50,208 nt of DNA. It comes from a virus. The position numbers and the translations under genes were made by a program. The stretch lies in the IMG/VR virus record IMGVR_UViG_3300031576_000067, positions 1 through 50,208 of that record; one strand, written 5' to 3'. The first letter of the stretch is position 1; the number at the start of each line of letters is the position of its first letter. Below are positions 4,165 to 27,118 of this stretch, in pieces. The notes below the pieces were generated by a model that was not told the origin of the DNA, did not search any database, and saw only the letters and a list, made by a program, of their open reading frames with translations.

Positions 4165-5580
4165 TCAGGCCACGTAGTTCTGCAGAACAGACAAGAGGGG
4201 TAACAGTGGATCAGTTGTGTTCGCACTAACCGAAACCGCTGCTACTTTATACAGAGCGTAGAGGGTTGCCGCGCTCTCCACATCGGCATCGCTTGAATGT
4301 TTCACCACGCCTCCTCCGAAACCAAAGGAAGAGCTGATGGATGTGCCATTCAATGAAGAGTTTACACTAACTGTCGGAGGGTTGACAAGAGTGTACCTCA
4401 GAATTCTTTGAGACGAAGGCTTTTCACGCAGCGACATCTCTGGCAGCATGCTGCGAAGCATTTGCGGTAGACGTGACGCTGTTGGTTTTGCGAAGTTAAA
4501 GCTATCGTCACCCAACAAATCTAACAGTTGAGGCATCTTTAATAGGCGAGTAAAGATCCCTGGCAATACAGACCGAAGACCAGGCATCTCTTTCCCGAGA
4601 ACCATTCGTGAGAATGCCTCAGGACCCACCACTACACCGTTATTTGCAAGTCCTCCTAAAAGGTCTACGGGGTCTCCCTCGAGCTTTTCTAAAGCTTCAC
4701 CAGAACATGGGCAGGACAAAGCTTTGGGGGCTTCGTCTTTCACGAAACGTTCGCGTGCCGAGCTTGGCGTTACCTTACCTACTACTCCTTCGATTTCCTT
4801 CTCGATTTCCGAAAGCTTACGTAGCACGGACAACTTGCTGTGTGCAGCCGACTTGGTGTCTACGTAATCTTGCTCTTGAAGTCCTTCGAGCTCTGCCAGA
4901 TACACCGACGGCATTCCTTCTGTATACCCTTCGGAGGCAACTTTCTGGAGCACATACGCGATGCGGTCAGCAGGACGGAATACAAACGAGATATCAAAGA
5001 AACGGGGCTCCGGGTTGTAAGCGAATACTTGACGACCATCAGGATAGACGCGAGTCATCTCGTTCTTGAGGTGTTCACAGTATTCTTCACGTGTTTTGGC
5101 CTTATTACCACAGATGCTGCAAATGTCGAAAGGTACTCGCGCGGCCATACTAACTGGCACGTCTAACCCTTCGTTGATCTTTCGTACTTCTTCAGGCGCT
5201 TTGCTATTGTCGATCTCACAGAGAAGCTCAACACGCATCATGCCAGGATTATAGTATGAGCGAATGACTTTACCGTAGCTCTTCTTTGGATCTTTGTTTA
5301 CATGATGTCGATAAACATGTCCATACTGCTCGAAGGTACTGTGGTGGTTCTCAAGCTCTTTCTGCTCGAAATAATCACCGTTACGGTTGCATCCGTATGC
5401 TTCTCCTGCGCCTAGTGCAAGGATGTGAGCATACGTAAAACCCTGACGGGGTTTGATCGCCTTGAAGTATTCTGATAACTCCGACGCGGTTTTCTCCAGG
5501 TAGAGTTCTCCCTGATGCACGGGAAGGACGTGCAGGGCGACCTCAGAGAAGTCGAAGGAGTTACTTAGGAGTTTTATCAT
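4165..5580 (-). CDS. Prohead (capsid maturation) protease
   Basis: 471 residues from the ATG at 5580, three bases after the previous stop. A GTG at 5616 is an alternative start. The N-terminal half has the layout of phage prohead serine proteases: GCNRNGDYF (start of the conserved block), a histidine region HVYRHHVNKDPKKSYGKVI, and the serine region VPVSMAARV. The candidate catalytic residues are the His near HHVNKDP and the Ser of PVSMA. A cysteine cluster, CSICG...YCEHL, follows and probably binds zinc. The segment ending RFFDISFVF is also typical. About 220 extra C-terminal residues of unknown role follow, perhaps a core-incorporating tail. It would cleave scaffold and tagged head proteins during maturation. 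Confidence 0.82.
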   Translation of the reverse strand: MIKLLSNSFDFSEVALHVLPVHQGELYLEKTASELSEYFKAIKPRQGFTYAHILALGAGEAYGCNRNGDYFEQKELENHHSTFEQYGHVYRHHVNKDPKKSYGKVIRSYYNPGMMRVELLCEIDNSKAPEEVRKINEGLDVPVSMAARVPFDICSICGNKAKTREEYCEHLKNEMTRVYPDGRQVFAYNPEPRFFDISFVFRPADRIAYVLQKVASEGYTEGMPSVYLAELEGLQEQDYVDTKSAAHSKLSVLRKLSEIEKEIEGVVGKVTPSSARERFVKDEAPKALSCPCSGEALEKLEGDPVDLLGGLANNGVVVGPEAFSRMVLGKEMPGLRSVLPGIFTRLLKMPQLLDLLGDDSFNFAKPTASRLPQMLRSMLPEMSLREKPSSQRILRYTLVNPPTVSVNSSLNGTSISSSFGFGGGVVKHSSDADVESAATLYALYKVAAVSVSANTTDPLLPLLSVLQNYVA

Positions 5581-5582
5581 TC

Positions 5583-6632
5583 TTAGTCGAAGTTTCGCTT
5601 CCACATGTTTGACCACCCCCCCCCAAGAGGGGTGACCATGTCCCAGAAGTTCTTTAGTACCTCTCCGGTATAGCTGTACTTCGAAGGGGGAGATCCCGTG
5701 CCGCCTGGGTTACTTGCGTTAGCTAATTCTGAAGGAACAGTGAAGTTCCGGTATTGTTCTAGGCGTCTGTAGAAGTCTCCGCCTGGATCATCTTCTTTTC
5801 CGTATCTGCCTTCCGCAGCATACCTATCTTGGATTACCTTGATAAGCTCTGCAGAATCTACGCCCCCTGATTCTGCAAAAAGGATTCTCTGGATTTCAGA
5901 GTCCCGCATTCCCACCTCTCGCGCGGCATCAACGAGAGCACCAACCCCCCATCCTTTGGATGCCCAGTCTTGTCGATCTTTACTCGAAGCAAGTGTCCCC
6001 CCGGGAATATCCTTTGAAAGGATGTCGAAGATCTCTTTATGTTTTGGATTCTGAGGATTGAGTCCAAATCGTCCAGGCTCCGCATCGCGAAAGAGAATTC
6101 GACCACGTTCAGCGGCTGAGGCTGTAGCTTGTGGGAGTGTAAGCGGCATACCCTTTCCTTCCCGCTCTCTCTTAACTCGTGCGTCTTGTAGTGCCAGAGC
6201 GATGGTTTGATGAAGTGGTTCTTTGGAGATTGCCCCCAAGACCGCTCCAGCGCCGGCACCTAAAAGGCCTGTCTTTGCCGCCTTAGCTGCCATAGACCCC
6301 AAGGTTGGATCTTCCTCCCACTCGTCTCGTGGGCGAAACTTCTCCCACAATGCTCCCACGCCCGCGGAGGGTAACGCCATCATCAAAGCGTTTTGAACAG
6401 GTGCTCGCTGCCTGTTAAACCACGTTTCTGCGGGAGCTAAGAAAGACTCGTCAATGTACTTCAGAAACGAGGTATCAGGTTCGGCCTGGGCCAGCTTCAA
6501 TATCCCCTCTGCGTCCTGCTGCATACGATGCAGCATCCCCGCAAGAAACGTCGGAGAAGACGCCTGTTTCTCCAGCCCTCGAGACCGCAAATACTTCTGC
6601 AGGCCCTCTACCGTGCTACACAGCTTATCCAT
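5583..6632 (-). CDS. Unknown virion-associated protein with Gly/Ala hydrophobic segment
   Basis: 349 residues. The N-terminus contains short helices with KQA and LKLAQAE (residues about 15-50), reminiscent of the recurrent signature. Around residues 130-150 there is a Gly/Ala-rich hydrophobic stretch (GLLGAGAGAVLGAIS) that could insert in a membrane. The C-terminal half is soluble and aromatic (YRRLEQYRNFTVPSE). Because it lies directly upstream of the protease in the head operon, it is likely packaged in the virion. No enzyme motif is visible. Confidence 0.5.
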   Translation of the reverse strand: MDKLCSTVEGLQKYLRSRGLEKQASSPTFLAGMLHRMQQDAEGILKLAQAEPDTSFLKYIDESFLAPAETWFNRQRAPVQNALMMALPSAGVGALWEKFRPRDEWEEDPTLGSMAAKAAKTGLLGAGAGAVLGAISKEPLHQTIALALQDARVKREREGKGMPLTLPQATASAAERGRILFRDAEPGRFGLNPQNPKHKEIFDILSKDIPGGTLASSKDRQDWASKGWGVGALVDAAREVGMRDSEIQRILFAESGGVDSAELIKVIQDRYAAEGRYGKEDDPGGDFYRRLEQYRNFTVPSELANASNPGGTGSPPSKYSYTGEVLKNFWDMVTPLGGGWSNMWKRNFD

Positions 6633-6641
6633 GACTCAACC

Positions 6642-6998
6642 TTAGAGTGTAGTTACGGATTCGCCACTGAACGTATCTGCGTTGGCACGAAGTGTAGTGA
6701 CAGCGGTCGTAATGCGTGTCAGAATCGTGGCCGCGTATGAGCTGGCTAAAGCCCCTGCGTCATCGAAGTCGCTTCCATGAAACTGCTCAATCACGGGGAA
6801 GCCGGAGGGCAGCTTGCGAAACGCGGAGTCAATCACAACAGAGTCTAACCCTGCGGTGAAGGTTCCACCGATCTGAACCTCAGGCTCCCCAAACTTCTCT
6901 GCAAGTTCAGCATCGCTCCCTGAAAACTCAGGAATCTGATGCTCGACTGAATAGACGTTGTCTTCCAGTTCTTTGATAGTCCGGACTTTGACAGCCAT
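6642..6998 (-). CDS. Unknown small protein
   Basis: 118-residue acidic protein with beta-strand-like N-terminal half (VRTIKELEDNVYSVEHQIPE) and an Ala/Thr-rich C-terminal helix (ASSYAATILTRITTAVTTL). It could be a small structural or neck protein, but I recognise no family. It is encoded ten bases from both neighbours in the head-proximal operon. Confidence 0.45.
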   Translation of the reverse strand: MAVKVRTIKELEDNVYSVEHQIPEFSGSDAELAEKFGEPEVQIGGTFTAGLDSVVIDSAFRKLPSGFPVIEQFHGSDFDDAGALASSYAATILTRITTAVTTLRANADTFSGESVTTL

Positions 6999-16187: not shown

Positions 16188-19100
16188 TTACCCTGGAAAC
16201 TCAATGGGATCATCTACATCTATCTCATTACGGCGATATGCGTCGAGTGCCGCTTGCTTCGAGGGAAACTTCCGGACTTCTTTTTTATCGTTTGTACTAG
16301 AAGCTTGGAAAAGCCCGTAGTGTGATTCTTGTACCGGCATGTGCATTGGACGAGGTTGCCCCAGCGCAAACAAGTTCTTGCTTGGCAACATCTTCTCAAG
16401 GGCTTCTGTCCGTGCTGCCTCGGTAACCGGTACGTGGACCGAAAAGGCATCACCGTCATGGTCAGCGTTGAAGCCCGCTTCGATCAGTGGCGGCAGAGCC
16501 AATGACTTATCCAACCGCAAACGAGGCTTTAGCGCCAAGATGTTGAACTTGTGAAGAGTTGGAGCACGGTTAGCCAGTACCGGACGCTCCAGTAGAACCT
16601 CGTCAAGTACTGCCTTCGCTCGTGGGGTACGTGCTTCGATCTCATCCGAGGCTTGAACAGCAGGAAGGCCACGCTGCACTAACTTCCGCATAACGAACGG
16701 CTGATACATGCTCCAAGCCATTTCCTGTGGAAGCCCAATCTCATCCATGCCTAGCGTTGGATCTGGCACGATGACCGCGCGTCCAGTTACGTCTTGGGGC
16801 TTTCCAAGAAGCTTGAACTGAAACATGCCCGTCTTCGGACTCGACCCAACGATATCCTCGAGGAAGCCTTTCAGTTCCTTCTGCTTACCTTGTGGAGATA
16901 CTGGATCGCCTAGTCCCGAGATAGCCTTAGCTGCATCGTATAGGCCTAGCTTCTCCGCACCCAAGGACTCATCAGGAAGGTCGGGCTTGAGATCGATGAG
17001 TTGGCGATTGACGTGGATAACGTCAGCGTACAGCTGGTTTACCGCACTCTTGATTGGTGCTTCTTCCCCCCGGAACGTCACGGGACGAAACATAGGAGGG
17101 ATGACGGGGAGCTTCCGGATCATCAGCTCTTCTGGCCGAATACCGTTCTTCTGAAGAGTCTCGAAGTACCCCTTTACCTTCACTGCGTTATCGCGCCCAG
17201 TGCGCTTACCCGAATCAATCAGGCGATTCTGAGATGCGAGTGCCTCGACGGGGTTTATCTTAGTAAGGGCCGATACAAGTGCCTCGCCTCCACCCTTCCC
17301 ATCAATAGTGTCTCGGTGAGCGATGATGTCACGCATCTTCTTCTCGGTAATCCCGAGAATACGCATCACCGGCTCTTCCATCACAGGGTTGGGGATGGGT
17401 TCTGCTAGAGCAATGTGCCCCCACCGCTCCCCTCGAGGTCCCCCGGTTACCGCTTCGTCAAACAGCCCCCCCTTCTCCGGATTGAAGTCACGACGACGGA
17501 ACATGAGAGCATTGTCAATTGTCCCCTTGGACAACTGCTCAGTGTCTCTGTCCGTCATCGGAAGAAGCTGGCTTGCGTTTGGGAGCTTCTTGACGTTGAT
17601 CCCCGAAGCCCGCAGCGAGTTCTCGAACTTGTTGTAGATGAAGGGAATCTTCGGGGAAGGAAGCGGATAGCCCAGGCGGAGTGCTCGCCAGAAGTCTGTG
17701 TTCTTCTGTCCCTTTACCAAATACATGTCCCGAATGTTTTCGATAGCTCCATGGGAGAGCAGTGCGTTAAGCTCAAGGTTTCCTACACGCTTAGCCCCTT
17801 CAACACCACCCTTTGCGGGAAGCTCTTCGCTAGTGTATGGACCGATCGTACGTGCACCGAACCCCGACTTAGCCGTCTTCGAGATCTTCAACATGAAGCT
17901 CTCTCCCGTAAGTACGTTCGGGATCTTGCGACCGGTCATCGGGTCGGTGAGGGTCTCCGTATCTTTTAACCCGTGCTTGGCGAGTAAGTCCTGCGTCATC
18001 TTGAGGTTGCTGGTTGCTCCGAAACCTTCGACAAGGACAGGTTGCCCCGTCTTCCGAGCTACCTTTCCTAAGGCAGCCTCGAAGACCTGTGCTGGATTGA
18101 TGCGAGAGATGATCCCCAGAGGGTTGAGCATAATTTCCAGGGGACGACCATCTTCGGCCGTAGGCATCTGATCATCAGGGAGGATGAGCGATACAACCCC
18201 CTTGTTTCCATAACGCCCAGAGTTTCCTGACCATACTGGCTTTCCGTTGCGCCGAACATACAATAAGCCGTTGGGTACAGTAGCACAGAAAATCATACCG
18301 GAATAGTTAATCCATGCTTCAACCTGAGTCTTTTGGCTTTCAGTCTGACTATGATTGACTGAAGGCGTATTCTTGGTACGAACAATACCAACCTTGTACA
18401 TAATGTGTTTGGCTTCGATATAATGTCCGTTAGCAGGAGTAATCCCCTTATTCAGCACGTTTCCCGAAAGGCCTATCTTCAGGCAAATCTCAGAAACATC
18501 ATCGGCAAGTTGTTTGGACGTAGTTTGATACTGCATTACCCCCTTAGGGCTTACGTGCCCGTCACAAGCAATCATAGCATCTAGCAAAATCTGAAGCTCA
18601 CTCGAAGCCCAACCCAAGTATTCTCGAGGTACATACTTCTTCCACGCCTTTCCAAGAGGACGCAAAAAGGTTGCTAGAGGCTTAGAATAAATCCTGAACT
18701 TATAATTCTTTGTATAGACATAATGAAGTCCAAGCCGCTTTAGGCATGCTGCGATCTTTTCTTTGACAATCCCCTCTTTCTTCTTAGTAATTTCTACCCC
18801 GTAGGACCCCGACGGTTCGTGCCAGAAACAATTTCCATCCGCAAGGTAGTACCCAAAAAATTCTGCCCAGTCTTGAGAATTAAACAGAAGGGAGCCAGTG
18901 TCACGGTTGCCCCTTCCTCCTTGTCCGGCAACTACTGTAATCCCTGGAATCACCACTATTGAAGGCGTAAAGCCTCTCCAGGTGTCAACATCTTTCTTGT
19001 ACCGAACGAATTCCCCGAATACATCTACAGCCTTAACCTTTTTCCATTCTTGATTTTTTACTCGACGTGGATCCCCGCAAGCTACATACATGTCATGACT

Positions 19101-21626
19101 AGGAGTCACTACTAGATCAACTTGTTGTGTCTCAATCTTATACATCAACCCACTATATGTTTGAGTTATTAGCTGCTGGGGACATTGGTATTCAAGCTCA
19201 TGGGTTGTTGGATTTAACGTTGCAAATTTCGTGGACATAGAGGCGACTGACCACTTAATCCAACCTTCTGCAGTTAAAACTTCTGTTTGATTGTCATAAC
19301 AAAGCTTATCGGCAACCTTTACCGGAGCTTCAGTCTTGACGTTGACCTTGATTCCCTTGTTCGTCTTTACGACGTCAATGATCTTCCCATCGTAGTCATG
19401 GTCCCATGTTACTGAGACATCTTCGTACGCATCTTGAAGGTTCTTGTGAAGCTTCCCTAACATGAGATCGGTAGTGGATAGCGTCTTCTTCTGAAGGCCC
19501 AGAATGATAGGGTCACCAGGCTTCACCATTGTCCCCGGCTTAATTACACCCTGGTCATCAAGGATGGCCGTCTGTTCACGCGAATACGCCGTTGGAAAGA
19601 ACGAGATATACCTGTTCAACCCAAGCAACGTATTTTTATCCGGAGTTAAGTCCTTCCCATATAAGTGCTCAGACGTTAGCTTCTTGGCTGCGGACTCCGA
19701 TACGACGATGCCGTCGTCACTGCCGTACCCCTTGTATGGGATGTAACCGACGCGAAGATTTCGCCCAATAGCGAGCGTTCCTGCTTTATCTGCAAAGTTC
19801 GTCGTCGCGAGAAGATCTCCGGCTTTGACCTTGTCCCCAACCTTGACCTTTACGTTCTTAGCATGGATGAATGTCTGACGGTTAAAAGGAAAGTTCTCGT
19901 AGATATCCTGGATGTGTTCTTTGCCCTTAGCATCACGCACTACGATCTGATCGGCATCGACAGTAACGACTTCTCCGTCGAACCGTGCAACGTGTGCTGC
20001 GATCTTATGGCCAATCAGGTTCTCGAAACTACGGTCTTCCCCCGGCATCTTTGACTGGACGAGAGGAGCCTCACCATTCACCAACGGAAGCGTTTGAGCG
20101 AAGGCCTTCCCTGCCATAAGCAGGCGGTTACCCGATACGCTGTTTACCATAGGTACAAGGTTCGAGGACAGGGCAAACATGCCAGACGCGCTGGGAAGCT
20201 CATACTCAACATCCCCACGGGCAGCCGTCTCCATGTGACCCTTGTTCATCACCTTTACGCGTGCGTTACCCTTCGCCATCTCTCCAGGGAAAGCTACGTT
20301 ACTGAGTGCCATAGTATCGGCGGTAACATGATCCAGCTTTCCCGTCTTGATATTGCGAACCTGGGTGTAGATACTCTTGTTTGGTCCCTTGAAGGCGTTG
20401 TAGGCTAAGCGCACGTCGACGCCAATTTTATTGCTCTCGGGTCCTCTGATGGGGTCGATAATCCCGAACTGGCTTGAGTGAACATTGCGTGCTTCCATCG
20501 GTACGCTTTGGATGGACGGAATCCCACCCTCGCCCAACGCAATGGCACGTTGTTGTTGATCAAGAAGGTCAACGGGATTGATTTCCTCGAGAGGCAGTGC
20601 TCGTGCATCCCCTTGAAGCAAAGCCCGAAGCTGGGGCGTAAAGAATCCTGCCGGCATGCCCTTCAAGGACTTCTTCTTCTCCACCTTCTGCATCAATAGC
20701 CGGCGCATGCGTCCAGCATCCTTCTCTACCTTCTCGGAGAGAAAGTCCTCCACCCCATGGAACGTACGGAAACGGATGGAGTCACGATCGTCCGGCTCTT
20801 CAGTTCCGCGGTTAATATTCAGGATGCGCTTGGTAGCATCGATAATCGTTGATTTCTCGATCTTGTCATAGGCCGTCCCAAGGGTAGCCTTTGTTACCTC
20901 AGAATCAAGCTTCGATGTCTGGAACGCATCGTAAACAGCATGAGCCTTCTCTTGGTCTGACAAATTCCGATCTGGACGCTCCCCCAATACGCGTTCGTAG
21001 ATGTTATTGAGCGCGCGAGGGTCCTTGACTGCCTTATTAGCAGTGAGGATGTCTGACCCCCAAGACTTCTCAAGCGTGGCATCGTCTACCCCTACGGCTT
21101 TCAGCCAAGGATAGAGCGCACGACTTGAGTTCCCAAGCTGCATCTGAAACACACCAGAGGTTGGCTCCATCGTCAGACGGAAGCCCATCCCCGTGCCTGG
21201 GATCACGTTGAACTGTGATTCGAGTTCGCCGTTCTCGCGCACGCGATTGTACACGCCAGACTTCAGACGGTACTGGTTAACTACCGCGTACTCGTTTCCT
21301 CCTGCAATCATTGTGCCGCGAGGGGTCAAGTATGGAAGGTGAGCAAGCACCTTGTTGGTCTTCTCTACTGTCTTCCCAGAGAGCTTGTCAATCAGCTCTA
21401 CCCGTCCACGAATAGGAAGGACAAGATCGCGTCCTTCAAGTAGATGCTTCTTTTGGTCTGCTAAAGTGTATCGAGTGTAAGGAATCTCAATGTTCGACAA
21501 CTTGACGTCATACATCTTCCCTAGAATCAAGGGATTCTTTTCAAATGCCGACTTGACCCGATCAATCACCGCATGTCGGGTGGCTGTCGTATCAGAAAAG
21601 TCACGTAGTTGAACTGGTTCAGTCAT
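16188..21626 (-). CDS. RNA polymerase beta subunit fused to N-terminal half of beta', interrupted by an intein
   Basis: 1812 residues, 1452 without the intein. Beta signatures in order: LTPRGTMIAGGNEYAVVNQY, then NVHSSQFGIIDPIRGPESNK, then NRLLMAGKAFAQ, then GYGSDDGIVVSE, then the catalytic loop DKL/SGRYGNKGVVS split by the intein, then SGFGARTIGPYTSEELPAKG. Near residue 1340 beta' begins without a break: FRRRDFNPEKGGLFDE, GHIALAEPI, LLGKPQDVTGRAVIV, RAPTLHKFNI and the metal-binding NADHDGD (canonical NADFDGD). The protein stops soon after, near the position where cyanobacterial beta' is split. The N-terminal beta' zinc ribbon is absent. It transcribes phage DNA together with the C-terminal beta' protein. 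No alpha, omega or sigma gene was seen here. Confidence 0.95.
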   Translation of the reverse strand: MTEPVQLRDFSDTTATRHAVIDRVKSAFEKNPLILGKMYDVKLSNIEIPYTRYTLADQKKHLLEGRDLVLPIRGRVELIDKLSGKTVEKTNKVLAHLPYLTPRGTMIAGGNEYAVVNQYRLKSGVYNRVRENGELESQFNVIPGTGMGFRLTMEPTSGVFQMQLGNSSRALYPWLKAVGVDDATLEKSWGSDILTANKAVKDPRALNNIYERVLGERPDRNLSDQEKAHAVYDAFQTSKLDSEVTKATLGTAYDKIEKSTIIDATKRILNINRGTEEPDDRDSIRFRTFHGVEDFLSEKVEKDAGRMRRLLMQKVEKKKSLKGMPAGFFTPQLRALLQGDARALPLEEINPVDLLDQQQRAIALGEGGIPSIQSVPMEARNVHSSQFGIIDPIRGPESNKIGVDVRLAYNAFKGPNKSIYTQVRNIKTGKLDHVTADTMALSNVAFPGEMAKGNARVKVMNKGHMETAARGDVEYELPSASGMFALSSNLVPMVNSVSGNRLLMAGKAFAQTLPLVNGEAPLVQSKMPGEDRSFENLIGHKIAAHVARFDGEVVTVDADQIVVRDAKGKEHIQDIYENFPFNRQTFIHAKNVKVKVGDKVKAGDLLATTNFADKAGTLAIGRNLRVGYIPYKGYGSDDGIVVSESAAKKLTSEHLYGKDLTPDKNTLLGLNRYISFFPTAYSREQTAILDDQGVIKPGTMVKPGDPIILGLQKKTLSTTDLMLGKLHKNLQDAYEDVSVTWDHDYDGKIIDVVKTNKGIKVNVKTEAPVKVADKLCYDNQTEVLTAEGWIKWSVASMSTKFATLNPTTHELEYQCPQQLITQTYSGLMYKIETQQVDLVVTPSHDMYVACGDPRRVKNQEWKKVKAVDVFGEFVRYKKDVDTWRGFTPSIVVIPGITVVAGQGGRGNRDTGSLLFNSQDWAEFFGYYLADGNCFWHEPSGSYGVEITKKKEGIVKEKIAACLKRLGLHYVYTKNYKFRIYSKPLATFLRPLGKAWKKYVPREYLGWASSELQILLDAMIACDGHVSPKGVMQYQTTSKQLADDVSEICLKIGLSGNVLNKGITPANGHYIEAKHIMYKVGIVRTKNTPSVNHSQTESQKTQVEAWINYSGMIFCATVPNGLLYVRRNGKPVWSGNSGRYGNKGVVSLILPDDQMPTAEDGRPLEIMLNPLGIISRINPAQVFEAALGKVARKTGQPVLVEGFGATSNLKMTQDLLAKHGLKDTETLTDPMTGRKIPNVLTGESFMLKISKTAKSGFGARTIGPYTSEELPAKGGVEGAKRVGNLELNALLSHGAIENIRDMYLVKGQKNTDFWRALRLGYPLPSPKIPFIYNKFENSLRASGINVKKLPNASQLLPMTDRDTEQLSKGTIDNALMFRRRDFNPEKGGLFDEAVTGGPRGERWGHIALAEPIPNPVMEEPVMRILGITEKKMRDIIAHRDTIDGKGGGEALVSALTKINPVEALASQNRLIDSGKRTGRDNAVKVKGYFETLQKNGIRPEELMIRKLPVIPPMFRPVTFRGEEAPIKSAVNQLYADVIHVNRQLIDLKPDLPDESLGAEKLGLYDAAKAISGLGDPVSPQGKQKELKGFLEDIVGSSPKTGMFQFKLLGKPQDVTGRAVIVPDPTLGMDEIGLPQEMAWSMYQPFVMRKLVQRGLPAVQASDEIEARTPRAKAVLDEVLLERPVLANRAPTLHKFNILALKPRLRLDKSLALPPLIEAGFNADHDGDAFSVHVPVTEAARTEALEKMLPSKNLFALGQPRPMHMPVQESHYGLFQASSTNDKKEVRKFPSKQAALDAYRRNEIDVDDPIEFPG
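18222..19301 (-). mobile_element. Intein with LAGLIDADG endonuclease in the RNA polymerase beta catalytic loop
   Basis: 360 residues within the polymerase fusion, from Cys776 to Asn1135. Splicing block A starts CYDNQTEVLTAEGW. Block B is VVTPSHDMYVACG with the TxxH motif. The C-terminal blocks end VRRNGKPVWSGN, followed by Ser as the +1 extein nucleophile. The usual penultimate His is replaced by Gly. Two endonuclease helices are visible: FFGYYLADGNC and LDAMIACDGHVS. The insertion splits the invariant DK(L/M)-(S/A)GR-GNKG segment. Base composition is clearly more AT-rich than the flanks. Precise splicing should restore VADKL-SGRYGNKGV. Confidence 0.92.
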
Positions 21627-21646: not shown

Positions 21647-21838
21647 TTATGCAGAGTCTTCACTAAGCTGACGTGCTAGAGATAACACACGATCCGCAAG
21701 GATTGGTGTCGCCCTTTTCTCCTGCAGCTTTGTTTGGCGTGCAAGCCATGTACTGGCTATTAAACCCAAAAACCCTTGTTTTTCAAGGGTTTCAGAGAAG
21801 CCACGAACATAGCCATCATATTCGGGGTTACTGGCCAT
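21647..21838 (-). CDS. Small signature-bearing protein
   Basis: 63 residues from the ATG at 21838, which overlaps the previous stop by 11 bases. A longer frame reaches upstream but would run deep into the preceding gene. It begins NPEYDGYVRGFSETLEKQGF, a clear member of the recurrent N-terminal signature family, and continues as a basic helix (TWLARQTKLQEKRATP). It consists of little more than the signature and one helix. It precedes the RNA polymerase fusion gene by 20 bases. Confidence 0.6.
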   Translation of the reverse strand: MASNPEYDGYVRGFSETLEKQGFLGLIASTWLARQTKLQEKRATPILADRVLSLARQLSEDSA

Positions 21839-24634: not shown

Positions 24635-24908
24635 CTTTCTTCTTCCGACGGGTGCGAGCTACTTTTTCAACTACTACTTTTTCACGAGGCGGGTAACAAG
24701 GCAGTGTTCCCAGGTTCCGTTCCCAGTCAAACTCAATGCGAATCCAGCCTTTCTCTAAAAGCTGAATACATTCCGGAGAAGCCAGGTAAGCATGTGAGAC
24801 GAGTAGCTTGCCTCCTGCAGGAAGGGTTTCGAGTGCTCCGAAGAGACCCGAGTGAACCCCTAGAGCGAACTTGACGCGACTTTCCAGATGATGCCTATGT
24901 TCGGTCAT
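24561..24908 (-). CDS. Unknown small basic protein
   Basis: 115 residues from the ATG at 24908, whose first base is the last base of the ligase stop (TAATG). It begins EHRHHLESRVKFALGVHSGL and has an alpha/beta body (PAGGKLLVSHAYLASPECIQ), then a basic region (RTRRKKKDAIPERLAEE). No family was recognised. Its tight coupling to the DNA ligase fusion hints at a related DNA-processing role, but that is context only. Confidence 0.5.
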   Translation of the reverse strand: MTEHRHHLESRVKFALGVHSGLFGALETLPAGGKLLVSHAYLASPECIQLLEKGWIRIEFDWERNLGTLPCYPPREKVVVEKVARTRRKKKDAIPERLAEEVDVLEPPPSGEALG

Positions 24909-27118
24909 TAGCGTGTCCACGTAACCCACGGCTTGCGGTTCTTCTGGAAATACGACATGATGTTCCCCGTGTTGTTCTGAAGTACTAGGTACTCTCGCGT
25001 ATGCGGATGGAAGTACGCTTCCGTTCCCACGCGTTTATGCGGAACAGGGATCAGCCCTTCACGGGAAGTAGCTAACTCACGCGCGCGCTCCAGATACTCC
25101 TTACGGGTGAGCCCCATCTCTACCGCATGCTTCCTTGCATGCTCCCGAGCGTTTTTCATGGATGTCCATTGAGCTTGTTGAAGAGACTTAGCTACGTCTT
25201 CTCCTAACGCCTCAGCAGACTTGAGGATTTTGCCTTTATCGAGATGCCACTGACCAGTGAATGCAGGTGCTCGTAGGGCCCCTGAGCTGTGCTGCCCCTG
25301 TGCAGTTACTTTGGCGACTCGACCTTTATAGCTCTGTGGGTTGTCCCACATGTCTTGGCGAAGTTCTTCAGTTAGTCCCGTACCAACCCGACCGACAATT
25401 TTACCTCGTGGGGTCAGGGAGTACTCAAACCCTCCTGCGTGAGAGCCTTCGAATTTGCCGCTGCCTTCATAGACATCACGCACGTAGACGTCATAGTCTG
25501 GACGGAGCTTCAATTTGACGGGCGGGCCATTGCCCTGCAGGTTCCACGCGATAACGCCCTCGGCAGTAGCGGGATGAGTTCCACTCTTGATTTTTTCGAA
25601 AAGCTGCTGCTTCTCTTCCGGAGAAATTGCGTAGTCCGGTACCGTGAACATCCGCGGAGTTGCTTTGTCAATCTCCTCGAGCATTTTCAGCTTTTCGGAG
25701 TACGGCAAATCACGTACATCACGGCCTTTGTATTTTATCACATCGAAAAGTGCATTGCGAAGCTCCACACCCTCCTCCGTCTGCTTCTGCAGGGAGTTAG
25801 CTGTAGTGGCGTTTAAGATGCCTGAGAGCTGATGCGCGGGAACTACTCGGCCGGTTTCTCGATTGATTCCGTAAAGCTCTCCTCGGACGATTGTTCCTTC
25901 AAGCTCTTTGGGGGTCTGCAGTTCATCAACACCTGGAATCTTGAATGTGTGATTAATAAGCCGATCAGAGCGAGCGCTTGGCCGATACGAAAATACCTGC
26001 GGATGGCGTACTTTAGATAGAGGATCTTTCTTAGGAAACTCAGTAATAGTATGAGCGCCGTCAATCTTAGCGCTGAGGAGATATTCAGGAGAGAGAAAGT
26101 TGGAGAGTTGGTCAGGCTTAGCGTCTTTATACGTGGGTTTTTCACTAGGAATCTCCCATTTCTTCTCGCGCGTTGGCGTGATGTTATACAACAGCCAATC
26201 TTCCGGCTTGCCGAAGTTCTTTGGACGAAAGAGCATGAACTCCTCCGGATCCTTTTTATTCGTCAAAACGAAGCGCATTTTATCTGGTTTAGATTCGAGG
26301 ATCCGGACATTGCCAGAGTCGGCGATCGAAACCGTTCCTTTCCCATACCCCTCGAGGATTGGACCTTTGAAGGTCATGTACTCAGGGGTATGTGTAGGTT
26401 GTACCACTGCAAGATGCTTCTTGCCAGGCTCGGGGAGTCCCTTACGTACGGCCCACGAATACGCGTGCTCACCATCAGATAGACGCAGGTCGAAGTGCTT
26501 CCCCGCCCGCTCTGCTTCGTGCTGATGCAGAGTGAAGTCCCAAGTGGAAGGCCCCTCGAGAATTGGGAGAGGCTTCTTGGAGCGGGACGTAGGAATGCCT
26601 GGAGCGAATTCTTCAGCGAGAGCAGAGAGCTTGGTGAGGTCCAGCTGGGCACGGCGAGGAGAAGCTTCAGCACTCTTCCCCTCCTCACTAATCATCTCTA
26701 ACTCATCCCCGACCTCTACCGGGATCCTGTCTAGTGTTCCTGCGGTCATCTCCAAGACATACGCAGCGCCTGGACAAGCTGCATTCTTGGTCCCTGCCAA
26801 GAGGAGCTCCTCAACCCCCACGACGGCCATGTCCTCATCGAGGAACAGAACGTCTAAGGGGAAGATCATGCCAATCATGTGGATCGAGTCCACTCCAGGC
26901 ATAAGGAGACCAAAGCCTTCAGGTGGTGGCTCACGTTCGAGCATCCCCTGAGTCTTCTCCTCTTTCGTTAGGGCAAGCTCAAGCTCAGTCACGAGCATCT
27001 GTCCACTAGGAAGATGTCGGATTCCTGAACTTGGAACAGCGGCGTTCTTAGACAACAACCCCAACATCACTGTCGGGGTTGCTTTAAGATGCCCTAGTAG
27101 TGCGTCTATCGCATCCAT
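24908..27118 (-). CDS. DUF192 + LigD-type 3'-phosphoesterase + ATP-dependent DNA ligase fusion
   Basis: 736 residues, three recognisable parts. Residues about 42-142 match DUF192 (GMLEREPPPEGFGLLMP, then IGMIFPLDVLFLDEDMAVVG). Residues about 190-312 match the LigD phosphoesterase domain: GKHFDLRL (His208), YSWAVRKGLPEPG and EGYGKGTVSIAD. Residues about 345-635 form an ATP-dependent ligase: KIDG with Lys351 as the likely adenylated residue, then VRGELYG, then EGVIAW (Glu520), VKLKLRP (motif V), and an OB-like domain with GRVGTG and LRAPAF. A C-terminal extension (640-736) ends VLQNNTGNIMSYF. Expected role: trimming 3' ends and sealing DNA breaks. DUF192 function is unknown. Confidence 0.85.
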   Translation of the reverse strand: MDAIDALLGHLKATPTVMLGLLSKNAAVPSSGIRHLPSGQMLVTELELALTKEEKTQGMLEREPPPEGFGLLMPGVDSIHMIGMIFPLDVLFLDEDMAVVGVEELLLAGTKNAACPGAAYVLEMTAGTLDRIPVEVGDELEMISEEGKSAEASPRRAQLDLTKLSALAEEFAPGIPTSRSKKPLPILEGPSTWDFTLHQHEAERAGKHFDLRLSDGEHAYSWAVRKGLPEPGKKHLAVVQPTHTPEYMTFKGPILEGYGKGTVSIADSGNVRILESKPDKMRFVLTNKKDPEEFMLFRPKNFGKPEDWLLYNITPTREKKWEIPSEKPTYKDAKPDQLSNFLSPEYLLSAKIDGAHTITEFPKKDPLSKVRHPQVFSYRPSARSDRLINHTFKIPGVDELQTPKELEGTIVRGELYGINRETGRVVPAHQLSGILNATTANSLQKQTEEGVELRNALFDVIKYKGRDVRDLPYSEKLKMLEEIDKATPRMFTVPDYAISPEEKQQLFEKIKSGTHPATAEGVIAWNLQGNGPPVKLKLRPDYDVYVRDVYEGSGKFEGSHAGGFEYSLTPRGKIVGRVGTGLTEELRQDMWDNPQSYKGRVAKVTAQGQHSSGALRAPAFTGQWHLDKGKILKSAEALGEDVAKSLQQAQWTSMKNAREHARKHAVEMGLTRKEYLERARELATSREGLIPVPHKRVGTEAYFHPHTREYLVLQNNTGNIMSYFQKNRKPWVTWTR

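Follow-up and report, generated by a model that had tools for sequence, protein, structure and literature searches.

A phage protein joining DUF192 to a LigD-like phosphoesterase-ligase core belongs to a phage family of phosphoesterase-ligases with exchangeable partner domains

Bacterial LigD combines a polymerase (POL), a 3'-phosphoesterase (PE) and an ATP-dependent ligase (LIG) domain and acts with Ku in non-homologous end joining (NHEJ), where PE is the end-healing part. DUF192 is a widespread domain for which, to our knowledge, no function has been established in any organism. The PE of LigD strips 3' ribonucleosides and the 3' phosphate in two metal-dependent steps, and in P. aeruginosa LigD, Glu82 and residues of an N-terminal segment are needed for the 3'-phosphatase but not for ribonucleoside removal (PMC8656161). 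The contact between LigD and Ku is mediated by POL (PMC7719229). Polyvalent phage proteins, predicted to enter the host along with the injected DNA, carry InPase, 2H, PBECR, SNF2 and GNAT domains (Iyer et al. 2017, PMC5512222; for GNAT also PMC7824862); neither LigD nor DUF192 is mentioned in the main text of PMC5512222. In virions of phage Arash, RNA polymerase beta and beta' rank with the most abundant proteins, and a helicase is present (PMC10585845). In the open-access papers searched, which are part of the literature only, neither PE-ligase nor polymerase-PE proteins had been described from phages.

The window, i.e. the whole stretch of DNA analysed here, is a linear fragment, 50,208 bases long, that IMG/VR lists as a virus record. 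Among its reading frames, positions 24908–27118 of the minus strand form a single unbroken ORF of 736 codons that starts with ATG at 27118 and stops at 24908–24910, and the plus strand over the same interval is full of stops. A sequence-only reading had described a triple fusion of DUF192, a LigD-like phosphoesterase and an ATP-dependent ligase at this position. The ORF is real but its strand is minus, and the three domains are present with intact catalytic motifs (Pfam; for PE and ligase also AlphaFold). The residue numbers given in that reading are right, namely His208 in HFDLRL, Lys351 in KIDG, Glu520 in EGVIAW and Lys537 in KLKLR. The description was incomplete in one respect, as a probable fourth, RNase-like domain occupies residues ~650–736. 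From the ORF and Pfam, the order in the 736 aa product is DUF192, PE, ATP ligase (nucleotidyltransferase, NTase, and OB domains) and a probably colicin-D-like C-terminal domain.

Residues 45–141 (26696–26986, minus strand) match DUF192 (PF02643) in Pfam with E 7e-14 and 52 bits against a cut-off of 27. A further DUF192 match has E 9e-17, and PDB entry 3pjy was matched with E 4e-5. On these matches the segment is assigned to DUF192. In the AlphaFold model, for which alignment A3 (31 PE-ligase relatives and three viral DUF192 proteins) was the input, this domain, like the C-terminus, looks disordered and has low confidence; for DUF192 this is not evidence against the domain, since only three distant sequences were aligned there. 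Structure prediction, proposed earlier as a check, gave confident PE and ligase folds and left DUF192 unfolded for want of aligned relatives.

DUF192 fused to a PE-ligase was seen in the window record only, as against 36 further PE-ligase contigs (see below). Separate small DUF192 genes lie within about 3 kb of the PE-ligase gene on four contigs, one short ORF before it in L061, 1.3 kb before it in L066 and L067, and about 3 kb after it in L062. Fusion in one record and proximity in others would, by 'Rosetta stone' reasoning, tie DUF192 functionally to the PE-ligase. This is held as suggestive only, because three of the four contigs form one close group and the window copy is nearer to cellular DUF192 (28% over 109 aa) than to the copies neighbouring PE-ligase in other phages (20–26% over shorter stretches), and it may have been acquired separately from these. 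A scan of viral sequences with a DUF192 alignment pattern found a single distant relative.

That the fusion occurs in one record could also mean that DUF192 was joined to PE by an artefact of assembly or annotation and that the true protein is an ordinary PE-ligase. We regard this as highly improbable. The gene is a single open frame, and GC by codon position is even along it and resembles that of several neighbouring genes, so there is no sign of a chimaeric junction. Moreover, DUF192 genes stand near the PE-ligase in the four relatives, and N-terminal additions are present in other relatives too. The fusion had been called unusual; this applies to the attachment of DUF192, which is peculiar to the window record, but not to the union of PE and ligase, which is common in the phage lineage.

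LigD_N (PF13298) was matched by Pfam at residues 198–298 with E 2e-17, and together with alignment and structural comparison this places the PE domain at residues 192–315 (26174–26545, minus strand). Just ahead of it, residues 171–176 (26591–26608, minus strand) form a 'FAPGIP' motif that is kept across the phage family, with G174 and P176 nearly invariant in alignment A3. His200, His208, Asp210, Arg212, His243 and Tyr247 of the window protein correspond to His42, His48, Asp50, Arg52, His84 and Tyr88 of P. aeruginosa LigD, whose active-site roles have been described (PMC8656161), and all six are unchanged in 31/31 aligned relatives. The ten-residue mean pLDDT of the AlphaFold model is at least 91 across nearly all of residues 181–620, and the PE part (residues 192–315) matches archaeal LigD PE structures at 1.5–1.7 Å (3p43, Z 17.8, 1.7 Å; 3p4h, Z 17.3). 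In a PE tree calculated from a short alignment, with weak inner forks, most phage PE-ligase, polymerase-PE (see below) and some single PE sequences group together (SH-aLRT 93). Bacterial LigD, with the 29 rows of the LigD set, and archaeal PE fall outside this group, and the polymerase-PE sequences branch from within it.

The Mn and phosphate ligands are retained in the phage PE. Glu82 of P. aeruginosa LigD is replaced in 33/33 PE-ligase rows (by Pro241 in the window), and the N-terminal KR-F motif, which we infer to mark the place of Arg14–Glu21 of P. aeruginosa LigD, occurs in 0/33 of these rows as compared with 22/29 in the LigD set. As the ligands are kept and both Glu82 and KR-F are lost, the phage PE sequence predicts that 3' ribonucleosides are trimmed and that the 3'-phosphatase is altered or weak. 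The same replacement of Glu82 is found in half of the archaeal PEs, and the meaning of its loss in phages is therefore a prediction, not a finding. The protein had been proposed to be a DNA-end repair enzyme; end processing and sealing fit its domain anatomy, but the NHEJ sense of the proposal is not supported, since no Ku was found in records that are mostly fragments (see below) and the 3'-phosphatase-linked residues of bacterial LigD are missing. Their loss makes processing of nicks or ribonucleotide ends at least as likely as double-strand-break joining.

The ligase includes an NTase domain at residues 318–540 (25499–26167, minus strand; Pfam, alignment, AlphaFold and structural comparison) and an OB domain at residues 541–629 (25232–25498, minus strand; Pfam, AlphaFold and structural comparison) with the terminal motif-VI-like LRAPAFTGQWHLDK. 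The Pfam ligase core spans residues 403–621 overall, comprising DNA_ligase_A_M (PF01068) at 403–524 (E 4e-6, over cut-off) and a weak OB match at 551–621. The NTase domain contains motifs I (K351-x-D-G), III (GE414LYG), IV (E520GV) and V (K535-x-K537). Lys351 and Glu414 are conserved in 31/31 and Glu520 in 30/31 aligned relatives, and Lys537 is kept in all aligned rows except one gapped row. The motif-I position that is usually Arg is His in 20/31 relatives and otherwise variable. The model of residues 318–628 matches DNA ligases, among them the Pyrococcus ligase 2cfm (Z 19.0, 25% identity) and the ligase domain of mycobacterial LigD (6nhx, Z 16.9). Judged from the motifs and the modelled folds, PE and ligase are very likely both active. 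The ligase parts of the phage PE-ligases form a single clade apart from bacterial LigD (SH-aLRT 97; only two LigD rows, long branches), and they may descend from LigD or from other ligases.

The C-terminal residues 650–736 (24911–25171, minus strand) were assigned by profile comparison, with weak fold support, to a probable BECR-fold RNase domain resembling those of colicin D and CdiA-CT. The domain has no Pfam or PHROG family, no viral relative was found by pattern search, and the window sequence alone gave no PDB match. The assignment is transitive via one uncharacterised phage protein, which was matched with E 0.1 in a database search and 1e-9 in direct comparison, and which itself matches toxin chain 8ey4 with E 3e-12. 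A profile of the two sequences matched 8ey4 (1e-9) and colicin D (5e-3 to 9e-5). HxxKH and Ser722 are kept; His660/His664 and Ser722 are the candidate catalytic residues, and an HxxKH pair with a late Ser/Thr agrees with the active site of PBECR/colicin-D RNases (PMC5512222). The single-sequence AlphaFold model was poor (pLDDT 56), and in comparisons made with it 8ey4 ranked third and CdiA toxin 5i4q thirteenth, with insignificant E-values. An RNase fold is likely on the sequence comparisons; that the domain is an active RNase is rated lower.

With such a domain present, the protein might serve in repair of RNA or RNA/DNA hybrids, undoing damage by host nucleases that attack tRNA or other RNA, and the RNase-like domain would be the processing part. 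The preference of LigD ligases for a 3' ribonucleotide end and the 3'-ribonuclease action of PE (PMC8656161) would suit this role, as would the possible colicin-D-like domain. However, the ligase motifs are those of DNA ligases, as are the best structural matches, and the frequent His in motif I does not indicate an RNA ligase. Repair of RNA is thus very unlikely.

Relatives were found by scanning viral contigs with an alignment of the AGxHxDLR motif. Thirty-six further contigs (L034–L069) have both PE and ligase matches, with best-segment identities of 35–47%, and more viral contigs have PE but no such ligase. A pattern scan with the whole window protein found no relatives among viral contigs because its patterns came from the peculiar parts of the protein, and an annotated phage collection of 50,697 records gave no PE match at E 1 or better. 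A PE-ligase is also carried by a 5.8 kb contig of a bacterial metagenome-assembled genome binned as Blastopirellula (L113), which may be viral. The PE-ligase frame or gene is split or doubled in L044, L047, L062 and L069. In L062 (5959–7344 of contig G033) it is interrupted by a single TGA in frame, where SWA has its conserved Trp, and TGA codons interrupt the RNA polymerase reading of this 210 kb phage too; here TGA probably encodes Trp.

Several relatives (G005, G013, G014, G016 and G033) have a separate ATP ligase of 430–457 aa, so the PE-ligase is a specialised second enzyme there, and for that part of the family we rejected the idea that the phages have no other ligase. Some long contigs (e.g. 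G007, G012, G024 and G030) showed no second ligase of the searched families, and no NAD ligase was found in any of 28 records. The last two observations would suit a role in replication, in which the protein would simply be the DNA ligase of the phage, with PE as a proofreading module that removes 3' ribonucleotides and a ligase that closes nicks left by lagging-strand synthesis or recombination. This role is unlikely given the separate ligases and the position of the gene, which is often near the RNA polymerase gene and not in a replication block.

The PE-ligase core is flanked in relatives, on either side, by InPase, SNF2 helicase, 2H-SAK, DUF4269, C39 peptidase, KTSC or GNAT domains. Long C-terminal additions (C39 peptidase, InPase, SNF2 helicase) occur in L035 (5908–8742) and others and bring the protein to as much as 1618 aa (L046). 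To the core the window protein adds DUF192 and the C-terminal domain, so that DUF192, PE and ligase, plus the probable RNase domain, share one polypeptide. PE-ligases with exchangeable partner domains are a phage family in which the DUF192 fusion is a single case. Known polyvalent domains are InPase, 2H-SAK, SNF2 and GNAT in the relatives, and only the probable BECR domain in the window protein.

The window also encodes an RNA polymerase beta-beta' fusion (16188–21626, minus strand; homology search). An insert at residues ~775–1136 matches LAGLIDADG and is probably an intein; G027, G029, G019 and G020 also match this region. Homologues of the RNA polymerase are present on 32/44 PE-ligase or polymerase-PE records tested, the window counted, and the PE-ligase gene is usually within a few kb of the RNA polymerase gene. 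Named distant relatives by RNA polymerase are Salmonella phage Arash and Vibrio phages D181, D148 and D69. No PE-ligase was found within the records detected as RNA polymerase relatives, and Arash has no PE-ligase match. A motif F-x-x-G-F-x-x-x-(L/M/A/I/C/V) occurs nine times in window proteins as against 0.5 expected and at most four in 200 shuffles, in genes at 21828, 23621, 23990, 31469 (two), 35314, 44375, 44791 and 46896, all on the minus strand; it is perhaps a packaging or targeting signal.

In sister phages, proteins of ~500 aa with LigD_Prim-Pol (PF21686) and PE are encoded immediately downstream of this RNA polymerase gene (L070–L100, e.g. L070 at 5293–6786). The polymerase domain had been called missing from the window protein, and the LigD polymerase is absent both from the protein and from the window. 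LigD_Prim-Pol exceeded the cut-off in 0/37 records (the window and PE-ligase contigs) and in 7/7 polymerase-PE contigs. Weak matches in long ORFs of six PE-ligase contigs (at most 20 bits, below cut-off) were set aside as probably another primase. No contig, among mostly incomplete records, was found to have both PE-ligase and polymerase-PE, and the window ligase region had no match in the polymerase-PE contigs tested, with weak ones only on the contig of L092 and in two giant phages.

Other arrangements of PE were observed as well. Phage contigs L018 and L019 (5947–7119) encode PE joined to a polymerase of PolX type, with the palm and thumb of DNA polymerase beta, and very long proteins or adjacent ORFs with a LigD-polymerase-like part and PE are found in L016, L020–L023, L027, L102 and L110. 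A LigD-like ligase match lies near LigD-polymerase-like/PE proteins in two phages of 300–340 kb. In a giant phage (L026, 1–6339), the C-terminal PE is split within the active-site motif (AG | CFPREV...SN | SHFDLRL) by an intein-like stretch.

A search for Ku elsewhere had been recommended. None was found in the window, the 36 PE-ligase viral contigs or 24 polymerase-PE/giant-phage contigs, mostly fragments, and Ku (PF02735) had no match in any of the 65 records searched (41 + 24), several of them 140–340 kb; as most are incomplete, this absence is provisional. These data bear on the possibility that the protein does the phage's share in joining double-strand breaks, as a cut-down LigD using host Ku, or a phage Ku encoded off the fragment, to recircularise or rejoin phage DNA. 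Mycobacteriophages Omega and Corndog encode Ku and borrow host LigD, the order PE-LIG and the folds are as in LigD, and sister phages have the LigD-type polymerase-PE. Against this stand the lack of Ku in the 65 records and the missing POL, the mediator of LigD-Ku contact (PMC7719229), and break joining of this kind is quite unlikely.

The reading towards which we lean is a phage enzyme for healing and sealing ends, built on a PE-ligase core, Ku-independent and of the polyvalent kind. The core would be characteristic of a lineage of large RNA-polymerase-encoding phages. Its PE would trim 3' ends by metal-dependent loss of 3'-terminal ribonucleosides, and perhaps of 3'-phosphate. The ligase, charged with AMP on Lys351, would seal the resulting 3'-OH/5'-phosphate nick. 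The enzyme should need neither Ku nor the LigD polymerase, and its main substrates would be nicks or gaps in the DNA of the phage. Healing of nicks or 3' ends, and not Ku-type double-strand-break joining, is probable, being favoured because neither Ku nor the polymerase was found.

The DUF192 and colicin-D-like RNase domains would make this end-healing enzyme a multi-activity 'polyvalent' protein that could enter the host with the DNA and act early in infection. If the pattern of Arash holds, it might reach the host together with the virion RNA polymerase and work on the phage genome as this enters. Delivery in the virion is a tentative proposal by analogy, borrowed from a relative because Arash has no PE-ligase match. 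A fuller scheme, which we consider doubtful, is a Ku-free phage ligase D split near the virion RNA polymerase into PE-ligase and polymerase-PE, where injected polyvalent proteins would mend or prime nicks with DUF192 as a helper.

A phage family apparently without Ku and polymerase offers a natural test of what PE and ligase do alone, and its members may be potential reagents as compact end-healing ligases. Since one RNA polymerase gene is accompanied by PE-ligase in some phages and by polymerase-PE in others, phages seem to handle the modules of LigD separately. DUF192 gains a directly testable link to nucleic-acid end processing.

The window protein resembles bacterial LigD in having PE followed by LIG, in the folds of both and in the intact PE catalytic residues. 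Unlike LigD, it lacks POL, no Ku was found with it, its ligase lies in a phage-only clade and it has the extra DUF192 and RNase-like domains; the phage PE has a two-residue AG insert in its motif as compared with classic LigD, and lacks Glu82 and the N-terminal KR-F motif. The protein is LigD-like in its working parts and is not filed as LigD because of the missing POL and the separate ligase clade. Archaeal stand-alone PEs (3p4h and 3p43) are the closest PE structures (Z 17.3–17.8) and share the AGxHxDxR form of the motif, but their genes are single-domain, whereas the window PE is fused to a ligase and is on a separate branch of the PE tree. Phage ATP-dependent DNA ligases (phrog_114; T4 ligase) have the same catalytic core and fold without the PE in front, and the window protein showed no N-terminal DNA-binding domain like those of T4 or cellular ligases. 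Compared with polyvalent proteins (PMC5512222), no metallopeptidase domain was found in the window protein, and its delivery into the host is putative. It is like them in uniting disparate domains in one polypeptide, and its relatives carry the InPase, 2H, SNF2 and GNAT domains of that class.
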